Positions 2,728-6,406 of a stretch of DNA of 64,000 nucleotides are shown in pieces. A program made the position numbers and the translations under genes. This stretch comes from Pseudanabaena mucicola str. Chao 1806 (lineage in GTDB: Bacteria > Cyanobacteriota > Cyanobacteriia > Pseudanabaenales > Pseudanabaenaceae), in assembly GCF_030323025.1 (NCBI RefSeq), contig NZ_CP097329.1, positions 899,001-963,000 on the forward strand, written 5' to 3'. The notes under the pieces were generated by a model. That model saw only the letters and a list, made by a program, of their open reading frames with translations, was not told the origin of the DNA and did not search any database. Position 1 is the stretch's first letter; every line of letters begins with the position of its first letter.

Positions 2728-3405
2728 TTACTTTTCTAGTTTAAAAGAAGAAATAAAACGATCAACATCTGTAGTTGCTAGCTTATCTTTGGCTCCTAGA
2801 GCAAATACCTGATAGAGGCGATTGTCTGCGAGGCAGAATCTACCCTTCATTGCCACATCTGTGGTTTTAATCTTACCGATCGCTTCAAAATCTCGACAAG
2901 GCACATCACCAAGGGCTGATTCCTTCTCCACCTTAATTTCTCCCTTGAGATTACCAACTGAGCCTTTTACAGAATCCGCTAGACCTTTTTGGACATCGGC
3001 AGGGTTGGCAATTTTATTGGGGAAATCCGCATAGCCTACAAAATAACCTGAATCATTGGCTTCAGCAATTACCATATTGAGCTTGATTGTCCCCACATCA
3101 GTTGTTTGGTCTTGAGATTGCTCCTGTGGCTTGCTAGGTAACTGTATACTAAATTTCCCAGCCGCAGATTTGTAGTCTTGCCAACCCTCCGATTTAGGTG
3201 TTGTAGCCTTTTCTGTAGCTTTAGCGCTTGAGGTTGTAGATTCTTTGGGGCTTTCTATCGGATTTTCATTTGGCTTTTCAGAGAATGTTGCTGTAGGTGA
3301 TGCCGCTTTGTTGGGAGTCGCATTATCAACTACAGGTGTAGGGGCATTACAAGCACTAACCGCAAATAAGACTAAACCAGCAGCAAGGGAAATATACTTT
3401 TTCAT
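2728..3405 (-). CDS. Hypothetical lipoprotein
   Basis: This 225-residue protein has a type II signal peptide: MKKYISLAAGLVLFAVSAC, with the lipobox cysteine at residue 19. A low-complexity Pro/Ser/Thr/Ala/Lys linker (about 20-72) tethers a C-terminal globular domain of about 150 residues. That domain begins at WQDYKSAAGKFSIQLP and ends DVDRFISSFKL. Its FSI.LP opening and closing RF..SF.L helix resemble PsbP-like or other small cyanobacterial lipoprotein domains, but I cannot assign a family. Two cysteines (DVPCRDF and GRFCLAD) could form a disulphide. It is transcribed alone, and its upstream region holds a strong palindrome and a dispersed repeat. Confidence 0.8.
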   Translation of the reverse strand: MKKYISLAAGLVLFAVSACNAPTPVVDNATPNKAASPTATFSEKPNENPIESPKESTTSSAKATEKATTPKSEGWQDYKSAAGKFSIQLPSKPQEQSQDQTTDVGTIKLNMVIAEANDSGYFVGYADFPNKIANPADVQKGLADSVKGSVGNLKGEIKVEKESALGDVPCRDFEAIGKIKTTDVAMKGRFCLADNRLYQVFALGAKDKLATTDVDRFISSFKLEK

Positions 3406-3519
3406 ATCTAATTTAAGCTATGAACTTTGATTTGGGGACAAGCATAAAGCTCGTTAGCTACTATATCGCGCCTTGAAGTCGTATTGCAGGAAATTAATAA
3501 CTCATCCTAATCCCTCCTT

Positions 3520-3570
3520 AGTCAAGAATTGGTGGTGCGGGGCAAAGTCCCGCACCACCAATTCTTGACT
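3520..3570. repeat. Perfect 22-bp-arm palindrome
   Basis: Bases 3520-3541 are exactly complementary to 3549-3570, around a 7-base loop. The palindrome lies in the 342-base space between two divergently transcribed genes (2728-3405 minus and 3748-5232 plus). It cannot be a simple terminator for either, so it is more likely a dispersed palindromic repeat. Apart from this and the repeat beside it, the gap shows nothing coding. Confidence 0.7.
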
Positions 3571-3576
3571 TTATAT

Positions 3577-3678
3577 GTAGTTAGACATAAGTAAACTAAA
3601 AAACCTATAGTTTTGTTCCGCCCGCGTAGCGAGCGGAACAAAACTCTGGTTTGGGTTTTAATTAAGTTGAGCTACTTA
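3577..3678 (+). repeat. ~103-bp dispersed repeat, copy 1
   Basis: The ends GTAGTTAGACATAAGTAAAC and TTTTAATTAAGTTGAGCTACTTA match 13709-13811 (same orientation) and 34239-34341 (opposite orientation). The centre is a stem-loop, GTTTTGTTCCGCCCGC…GCGAGCGGAACAAAAC. The imperfect terminal inverted repeats and lack of any ORF fit a MITE-like or REP-like non-autonomous element. Confidence 0.8.
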
Positions 3679-3747: not shown

Positions 3748-5232
3748 TTGCTCAAACCTATTTTCGATTCGACAAATGATCGCATGGCTATCCAACTACA
3801 GAACTTTGTGCAGTGGGGTTTAGCTAAGGCTGCCGAAGGCGACTGGCATGCAGCTCAACATAGCTATGATCAAGCTCTATGGATTAATCCTCGCTATGTC
3901 GATGCCTATATGGCAAGGGGCATGAATTATTTGCAGAAAGGGGATTTCGATCAAGCGTTGGCGGATTTCAACCAAGTTTTACAACTGGAGCCGATGTTAT
4001 CGGCGGGCTATTATAATCGCGGATGCACTTACTATGCCCAACAACAAGTTGAGTTGTCCCTTGATGATTTTCGGCAAGCGATCTCTTTAGATTCTCAATT
4101 TCTACCAGCCCACCAAAAGTTAGTAGAGGTTTTGAATAGCACGGGACGCTATCCAGAAGCTATTTTAGCCTATAGAGATTGGTTATCCATAGTAGGAGAA
4201 TCGGCAGAGATTTATCATAATTTGGCGATCGCTTATCGCCATTCAGGGCAATTAAGTGAAGCAGCGCAATGCTTTCAGATTGCTTTAAAAATTGATCCTG
4301 AATATATACCTGCCCGTGAAGAGATGCTCTTGTTGTATCGAGAAAATATTCAGAGTTGGCATTACTGGATGATGAATGATACGGCGCGTAATTTACCCTA
4401 TCAAGAAGCGATCGCTCGCTATGTCACTTCTGAGACTCTTGTATTGGAAATTGGTACAGGTTCGGGACTCTTAGCTATGATGGCAGCGAAGGCAGGCGCA
4501 AAGCAGGTGATTACCTGTGAATCCGAAGATCTAATTGCGGCTCAGGCAAAACAAATTATCAAAACCAATGGTTATCAAGTCCAAATTCAGGTCATAAATA
4601 AACTGTCCCATGATTTAGTTATTCCTCATGACTTGCCAGAACCTGCGGATATTTTGATCACAGAAATATTTGGAGCTTGGTTGCCGTCAGAGGGAGCTTT
4701 TGATGCGATTACCCACGCTACAAAGCATCTACTCAAACCCAATGCCAAAGTAATACCTTCAGGCGCAAATCTCTATTTGATGGCGATCGAATGTTCTGAA
4801 TTACATCAACGCTATTGGGTAGATCAGTCGCTTGGTTTCGACCTCACTGGTTTTAACGAGTTTCAATATCCTAGACCTGCTTTTATGGGACAGATTGATC
4901 AGCATATCTATCGCCCCCTCTCCGATTCTTACTGTTTTGCCCAACTTGACTTTGGTAGTGGACAGATGAAATTAACTGATCAGGTGGTTGATGTCCCTGT
5001 TGTTGCTGATGGAAGGCTTCATGGCGTTTGTACTTGGTTTGATCTGCTAATCGATGACACAGTGATGTTGACAACGGGACCACTGGGAGATGTGGGAAGG
5101 AGATCGCGTTCTTGGGGGCAACTAACCGCGATGATTTTTCCATCTCTTTGCGTAAAAAACGATGAGATTCTCAAGTTACAACTCTTGCCTTCTCTGAATA
5201 TGGTAGAAGTGATCGCTCAAATTCAGACTTAA
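3748..5232 (+). CDS. TPR protein fused to a PRMT-like SAM methyltransferase
   Basis: This 494-residue protein has about five TPR units (roughly residues 18-190) followed by a Class I SAM-dependent methyltransferase. Motif I is VLEIGTGSGLL (232-242), with the acidic ribose-binding residue in CESED. The linker WHYWMMNDTARNLPYQEAI and the later TEIFGAWLPSEG (305-316) resemble the N-terminal helix and double-E loop of protein arginine methyltransferases, particularly PRMT7/PRMT9-type proteins; PRMT9 also carries TPRs. The role is inferred to be protein methylation, with the TPRs holding the substrate or a partner. The start is uncertain: TTG at 3748 gives the full first TPR helix, and ATG at 3784 would drop 12 residues. 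It converges with rsgA across two strong hairpins. Confidence 0.8.
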   Translation: MLKPIFDSTNDRMAIQLQNFVQWGLAKAAEGDWHAAQHSYDQALWINPRYVDAYMARGMNYLQKGDFDQALADFNQVLQLEPMLSAGYYNRGCTYYAQQQVELSLDDFRQAISLDSQFLPAHQKLVEVLNSTGRYPEAILAYRDWLSIVGESAEIYHNLAIAYRHSGQLSEAAQCFQIALKIDPEYIPAREEMLLLYRENIQSWHYWMMNDTARNLPYQEAIARYVTSETLVLEIGTGSGLLAMMAAKAGAKQVITCESEDLIAAQAKQIIKTNGYQVQIQVINKLSHDLVIPHDLPEPADILITEIFGAWLPSEGAFDAITHATKHLLKPNAKVIPSGANLYLMAIECSELHQRYWVDQSLGFDLTGFNEFQYPRPAFMGQIDQHIYRPLSDSYCFAQLDFGSGQMKLTDQVVDVPVVADGRLHGVCTWFDLLIDDTVMLTTGPLGDVGRRSRSWGQLTAMIFPSLCVKNDEILKLQLLPSLNMVEVIAQIQT

Positions 5233-5241
5233 AACCTAGCA

Positions 5242-5335
5242 AAATTTTTGAAACAGAGGCTTTGTCTCTGTTTCAAAAATTTCTCCATAAATGAGAAAAG
5301 AGAGTTGCAAAGCAACTCTCTTTTCTCATTTATGG
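5242..5335. terminator. Pair of hairpins between convergent genes
   Basis: Stem 1 pairs 5242-5258 with 5266-5282 (17 bp). Stem 2 pairs 5285-5308 with 5312-5335 (24 perfect bp). They separate the plus-strand methyltransferase from the minus-strand rsgA, and the second overlaps the rsgA stop codon. A bidirectional terminator role is likely from position. Confidence 0.65.
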
Positions 5336-6406
5336 CTCTTCATCATAATCGAGATTTTGATGCTCACTACGGCGCGACTCTCGGCGATAGCGCTTTTTGA
5401 GTAGCCTTGGTTCTTGCTGTTGCTTACCATCACTAGCATCTTTTACCTTAACGGAGTCATCAGCATTTGCCGTGTTTTTGAGCTTTTGTTGATAGGCGAT
5501 CGCCTCTTCGAGATAGGTGAGGTAATGCTCGTAACGCTCCCAATCTCCACGTACTAAGCAATTCGGTTCATCACGACGATGTAAACAATTATTAAAATGA
5601 CAGAGTTCACCCGCAGTTAAGCGCTGCTTAGCTTCAGGGAAATAGTCAGCCAATTCCGTAGGAATTACAGTGAGATTTGGGTGCATAAATCCTGGGGTAT
5701 CCGCAAGATATCCACCCGCAGGTAAAGCAAACAGTTCTACATGGCGGGTCGTATGTCGCCCATGCCCTAAACGCTGAGAAACTTCACCAACGCGAACTTG
5801 TAAATTGGGAATTAATTGATTAATTAAGCTGGATTTACCAACCCCTGACAGCCCTGCAACCACAGTTATGCCAGTTCGTAAATATTGTCCTAATTCAGCA
5901 ATTCCCTCTTGGGTATAGGTACTAATTGCTACGGGTGGATAGCCCCAAGACTTGAAGCGATCACGCCATGTCAGCCAAAGTTCATCACTGATTAGATCCC
6001 TCTTATTTAGGCAAAGCAAAACCTCGACCTGAGTGCTTTCAGCTTTTACTAAGAATCGACTCACTTGATGCGGATCTAAGCTCGGTTCTGCAAGAGCAAA
6101 TACCAACAAAATGCGATCAACATTTGCCACAGTTGGTCGATCTAGCAAATTGCGCCTTATAGCTACCTCTGAGATAGCTCCTCGTTTACCATGCCAATCT
6201 GGTTCCTCGATTGTGATGCGATCGCCTACACAGATCTGCTGTCCAATTTTTTTAAGCCTTGCACGTCTGGTACAGAGCAATTCATCAATTATTTGGCTAG
6301 ATGGTTGTCCAAATTCATCTAGTAAGTCCAAACGAAATGAGCGATCCAACCTGACCCGATAAAAATTGGCTTGTACAGCCAAAACTGTACCTGTTAGAGC
6401 CAACAT
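5330..6406 (-). CDS. rsgA: Ribosome small-subunit biogenesis GTPase RsgA
   Basis: This 358-residue circularly permuted GTPase helps late 30S maturation. It has an N-terminal OB fold (LTGTVLAVQANFYRV…). The G motifs follow in permuted order: G4 NKRD, G1 GLSGVGKSSLINQL and G3 DTPGF. A C-terminal zinc-binding knuckle contains the Cys/His set of GELCHFNNCLHRRDEPNC. The last ~50 residues form a charged, low-complexity tail of Lys, Arg and Gln. It starts 13 bases after the tusA-like gene on the same strand, so those two are probably one operon. Confidence 0.95.
   Translation of the reverse strand: MLALTGTVLAVQANFYRVRLDRSFRLDLLDEFGQPSSQIIDELLCTRRARLKKIGQQICVGDRITIEEPDWHGKRGAISEVAIRRNLLDRPTVANVDRILLVFALAEPSLDPHQVSRFLVKAESTQVEVLLCLNKRDLISDELWLTWRDRFKSWGYPPVAISTYTQEGIAELGQYLRTGITVVAGLSGVGKSSLINQLIPNLQVRVGEVSQRLGHGRHTTRHVELFALPAGGYLADTPGFMHPNLTVIPTELADYFPEAKQRLTAGELCHFNNCLHRRDEPNCLVRGDWERYEHYLTYLEEAIAYQQKLKNTANADDSVKVKDASDGKQQQEPRLLKKRYRRESRRSEHQNLDYDEEP

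Follow-up and report, generated by a model that had tools for sequence, protein, structure and literature searches.

A bacterial TPR protein of Pseudanabaena mucicola with a methyltransferase core of the PRMT7/PRMT9 branch

Introduction

To our knowledge, protein-arginine methyltransferases (PRMTs) have been described almost entirely from eukaryotes. Among them, PRMT1-type enzymes belong to type I and animal PRMT9 to type II. The PRMT7 of T. brucei (TbPRMT7) is a monomethylating enzyme with a single PRMT domain, for which we know of no report of TPRs. In the making of streptozotocin, the nitrosourea is built by SznF and the methylarginine is supplied by SznE. The latter has been called the arginine methyltransferase of the streptozotocin cluster, and a homologue of it sits in the cluster for saskemycin, an antibiotic that contains N-methylagmatine (PMC12637814). 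PRMTs are defined by the two glutamates of the double-E loop, which clamp the guanidinium group (PMC8623767), and PRMT7 is placed in class III, the monomethylating PRMTs (PMC7224190). PRMT9 begins with three TPRs, which are believed to serve contacts with other proteins, and its methyltransferase domains number two, in tandem (PMC10984984).

Here, we describe a gene from a stretch of 64,000 nucleotides of P. mucicola str. Chao 1806 (contig NZ_CP097329.1, positions 899,001 to 963,000; hereafter the window), which an initial annotation had read as a TPR array fused to a PRMT7/9-like methyltransferase. Its product, the window protein, is compared below with PRMT9, TbPRMT7, PRMT1-type enzymes and SznE.

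Results

Domain layout and predicted structure

The features of the locus are collected in Table 1. Both possible start codons are kept in an 85%-identical homologue; ATG 3784 is the likelier start than TTG 3748, and residues of the window protein are counted from it.

Table 1. Features of the TPR-PRMT gene and of its surroundings, in window positions
Feature	Position	Strand	Basis or remark
TPR-PRMT open reading frame	3748..5232	+	494 aa from TTG 3748, 482 aa from ATG 3784
Five TPR helix pairs, residues 2-170	3787..4293	+	Pfam TPR_1 6e-30; model helices
Capping helix joining TPR array to catalytic core, residues 175-188	4306..4347	+	model
Rossmann methyltransferase domain	4351..4761	+	PDB search, model, residue alignment
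PRMT helix X, WHYWMMNDTARN, residues 192-203	4357..4392	+	alignment to mouse PRMT2
Double-E loop, ITEIFGAWLPSEGAF, residues 292-306	4657..4701	+	alignment
PRMT beta-barrel, residues 327-482	4762..5229	+	PRMT_C match, model, structural alignment
THW-loop equivalent RSW, residues 442-444	5107..5115	+	Trp kept, His replaced by Ser
Lipoprotein gene, weak PsbP_2 match	2728..3405	-	one flank of insertion site
60-bp palindromic repeat upstream of TPR-PRMT gene	3600..3659	.	MITE- or REP-like
rsgA	5330..6406	-	other flank of insertion site

The reading of the open reading frame as a TPR array with a PRMT7/9-like methyltransferase was borne out by Pfam, by the PDB search and by an AlphaFold2 model. The TPR_1 match reached 102 bits against a cut-off of 27.8, and PRMT_C was matched at 5.9e-6 (26.8 bits, just below the cut-off of 27). 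When the C-terminal 300 residues were searched against the PDB with phmmer, PRMTs filled all of the best 60 rows, led by TbPRMT7 (2.8e-40), with PRMT9 at 6e-36, both far beyond chance. The comparison with PRMT families that the initial annotation had proposed gave the same picture, as a profile of the bacterial family reached PRMT9 at 1.5e-90 and PRMT7 at 1.1e-83.

The model, built on 62 aligned sequences, had a mean pLDDT of 94.3. It is composed of five TPR helix pairs (residues 2-17/21-34, 39-52/55-68, 73-85/89-102, 107-119/123-137 and 141-153/157-170), the capping helix, a Rossmann domain and a beta-barrel, and so holds the Rossmann SAM domain and PRMT beta-barrel that mark the PRMT fold. 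In Foldseek, the first match was bovine PRMT9 (PDB 8rbk, Bos taurus; E 9.2e-27), with the TPRs and the catalytic core aligned jointly over 462 columns. The PRMT9 likeness noted at the outset is thus one of architecture and not of a motif alone. With VIA-align, TbPRMT7 was the best match (Z 32.6, 31% identity), aligned over model residues 176-479 with the TPR domain outside the aligned region. Bovine PRMT9 gave Z 30.3 (401 residues, model 67-482), and PRMT1-type enzymes, which share the overall fold, gave Z about 28-30. The structural alignment to TbPRMT7 and PRMT9 covers residues 176-482, including the beta-barrel. The TPR array and the core that follows it keep the same relative placement as in bovine PRMT9, and this joint superposition argues for, but does not prove, a shared architecture over an independent fusion.

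The initial reading holds in observation and interpretation alike, within limits: only one PRMT domain is present against the tandem pair of animal PRMT7 and PRMT9, the THW His is lost, and a protein is the presumed substrate. Compared with the three TPRs and paired methyltransferase domains of PRMT9, the window protein has five TPRs and a single domain. It is therefore not PRMT9 itself, because the open reading frame ends after one methyltransferase domain and the second is missing.

Conservation of the PRMT active site

In helix X, M196 and R202 of the window protein correspond to M127 and R133, the SAM contacts described for mouse PRMT2 (PMC8623767). The helix reads WHY.MMND, in contrast to the YFxxY of PRMT1-type enzymes, and shares the WH..MLND..RN pattern with PRMT9. 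Motif I (VLEIGTGSG) occupies residues 220-228, and E246, which lies further along and is assigned to the SAM ribose, is kept. The sequence first singled out as double-E-loop-like, TEIFGAWLPSEG, falls exactly on the PRMT double-E loop. Its glutamates, E294 (4663-4665) and E303 (4690-4692), have the same spacing as in mouse PRMT2 and are invariant across the 62 aligned sequences; both are likewise there in PRMT9, and the comparison of the window protein with TbPRMT7 sets SEIFG...GES against TEIFG...SEG in this loop.

The position of the THW loop reads RSW in the window protein, SHW in the closest outgroup (L031), MQW in TbPRMT7 and TCW in PRMT9. The divergent Pseudanabaenaceae relatives mostly carry TCW like PRMT9, with SHW in L027. 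Because PRMT9 has TCW and TbPRMT7 has MQW, the THW motif is not strict in the PRMT7/9 branch. By its fold and active site, the window protein is a PRMT. The outcome named beforehand as telling against this reading, namely that the closest match would be a family other than the PRMTs and that the pocket glutamates would be missing, did not occur.

Placement within the PRMT7/PRMT9 branch

A careful tree of 54 rows separates the PRMT1-type enzymes, with support of 100/99, from a group in which the bacterial family joins eukaryotic PRMT7 and PRMT9, and the same main split was recovered in a quick tree of 92 rows. The core of the window protein belongs to the PRMT7/PRMT9 branch. Within it, the window protein clusters with L030 and L031 (100/96), and the SznE-type proteins form a clade of their own (99/93) that excludes the window protein. 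Deeper in the branch, the link of the window protein to TbPRMT7 is weak (63/37), and a clade of the window protein and PRMT9, absent from the best tree, is not rejected by the AU test (p 0.145). Nor is a grouping with SznE (AU p 0.183).

A scattered bacterial family

Among the 84,980 prokaryote species scanned, relatives turned up at no fewer than 245 loci, 80 of which were retained; the count is a lower bound because the scan was pattern-based. They are spread over Proteobacteria, Bacteroidota, Cyanobacteria, Bdellovibrionota, Myxococcota and others, and TPR_1 was matched in 41 of the 53 aligned members. In cyanobacteria they are rare: only 3 of 373 sampled genomes gave a match below 1e-100 to the family profile, one of them SznE-type. 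Among the family loci examined, the TPR forms had no conserved neighbour beyond lineage-level synteny, and clpP, glmM, radC and dnaJ were judged to be coincidental, lineage-level neighbours. SznF, the sole recurrent neighbour of note, accompanies the short forms. The sole match in a viral collection spanned 54 residues; as far as seen, the TPR-PRMT is therefore not phage-borne. We found no description of a bacterial TPR-PRMT in the literature searched, which is weak evidence of absence, given that few subscription journals and preprints were covered and some queries were broad.

The conserved neighbour gene shared by nine loci with a short N terminus, lacking TPRs, encodes a Haem_oxygenas_2 domain, which is joined by Cupin domains in most of the neighbours scanned. 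One such neighbour was identified as SznF (3.2e-162, PDB), so that these short relatives are SznE-type by context. At one position of the double-E loop, Cys occurs in 10 of 10 SznE-type proteins but in only 2 of 58 forms with a long N terminus; the window protein has Ala there.

Other PRMT-like proteins were seen in cyanobacteria. The Pseudanabaenaceae genome G390 holds four PRMT-like genes (L024, L026, L027 and L028), three of them TPR-PRMTs. PRMT-like domains also lie inside cyanobacterial NRPS proteins, between adenylation and carrier parts (L012:153-2972 and L011:682-3117), where both double-E glutamates are kept (SEIVGAIGGSEG); the one in L012 matches Pfam PRMT5 at 1.1e-9. In the PRMT-like proteins L005, L006, L009, L013 and L028, the double-E loop lacks one or both glutamates (SDLRGILPLFEQ, SVFTGNFLIEED), and some of them extend further at the C terminus, with a stretch that, judged by eye, resembles PqqD. 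Finally, L008:1429-2535 is of the PRMT1/PRMT10 type, with SEWMGSLLLKESM and NHW, and matches an Arabidopsis PRMT (3r0q) at 1.5e-61; more than one PRMT branch is therefore present in cyanobacteria.

Insertion and selection in Pseudanabaena

Among the Pseudanabaena genomes, the gene occupies this site in only three (G000, G398 and G401), and in 15 others the site is empty, with the lipoprotein gene directly adjoining rsgA. Six other genomes hold a divergent copy (about 39-40% identity), which lies beside clpP and/or glmM in the loci examined. Given the empty sites and the divergent copies elsewhere, the simplest account is that, within one Pseudanabaena clade, the gene entered a site where the lipoprotein gene and rsgA had adjoined each other, repeated loss being less likely. 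Compared with the 85%-identical homologue of G401, dN/dS was 0.163 overall, 0.132 in the catalytic domain and 0.23 in the TPRs; the overall value is a sign of purifying selection, and the gene is therefore maintained. The 60-bp repeat upstream of the gene has 76 matches on both strands, at about 40 dispersed places in the genome. A near-perfect palindrome at 3518-3577 (TGGTGGTGCGGGGCAAAGTCCCGCACCACCA) is single-copy in the genome.

Discussion

As far as its anatomy tells, the window protein works in the manner of PRMT7 and PRMT9. We propose, with a probability of about 0.62, that it is an active protein-arginine N-methyltransferase, probably monomethylating, whose TPRs recruit the substrate. 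The five-TPR array would bind a protein partner or substrate and keep it close to the groove of the active site, which lies between Rossmann domain and beta-barrel. There, an arginine side chain would have its guanidinium gripped by E294 and E303, and the SAM that donates the methyl group would be bound through motif I, E246 and R202. Omega-N-monomethylarginine in a protein is the most likely product, a leaning that follows from TbPRMT7 being a monomethylating enzyme, and symmetric dimethylarginine is the second possibility. The protein presumably dimerises. That the substrate is a protein is something we infer, since the bacterial relatives include SznE-type enzymes that methylate free arginine.

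Those relatives, the best understood in bacteria and the closest there with a known pathway, count against the proposal, as do the lack of a partner or substrate gene travelling with the TPR forms, the Ser in place of the THW His and the AU result for a grouping with SznE. The strongest alternative is that the window protein methylates free L-arginine or a small guanidine compound like SznE, with the TPRs merely docking to another protein. SznE shares the PRMT7/9-like bacterial family and has identical catalytic residues, nine relatives without TPRs adjoin SznF homologues, and the saskemycin cluster includes an SznE homologue (PMC12637814). In contrast to the window protein, SznE-type proteins are without TPRs, stand beside SznF, carry the double-E loop Cys and form their own clade. 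Moreover, no SznF homologue was detected in the three genomes searched (that of the window, G401 and G390), whereas the positive control, G101, gave 3e-289, and the immediate neighbours of the gene (cox genes, the lipoprotein gene, rsgA and dnaJ) do not make up a biosynthetic cluster. We therefore consider action on free arginine unlikely.

The replaced THW His, together with the patchy occurrence, could also suggest a scaffold protein that keeps the PRMT fold but whose catalysis is weak or lost. This appears more improbable still, as all of the checked residues contacting SAM and the guanidinium are present, purifying selection is stronger on the catalytic domain (0.13) than on the TPRs (0.23), and TbPRMT7 likewise lacks the His. 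A protein methyltransferase whose target is not arginine, such as one with PrmA-like lysine or N-terminal methylation, is suggested by PF06325 PrmA, the best Pfam match of the catalytic domain (3.2e-10, 40.4 bits) and also that of all 53 relatives. This match, however, covers the generic SAM-binding stretch alone (221-339, numbered from the TTG), whereas the PRMT matches span the whole core including the beta-barrel, and the double-E glutamates are invariant. The PrmA identity was rejected as generic, since the fold and the searches, both by profile and against the PDB, point to PRMT7/9, and we regard a non-arginine target as very improbable.

For the family as a whole, its scattered but widespread occurrence suggests that some bacteria methylate protein arginines. 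It is conceivable, though doubtful, that several bacterial phyla carry out PRMT9-like, TPR-guided protein-arginine methylation, and that the animal TPR-PRMT came from, or shares its ancestry with, the bacterial family. A bacterial family with the PRMT9 active site and the same build of TPRs and core makes protein arginine methylation in bacteria testable in culturable strains. Its members may serve as single-domain models of PRMT9 and offer a route to the origin of PRMT7 and PRMT9.
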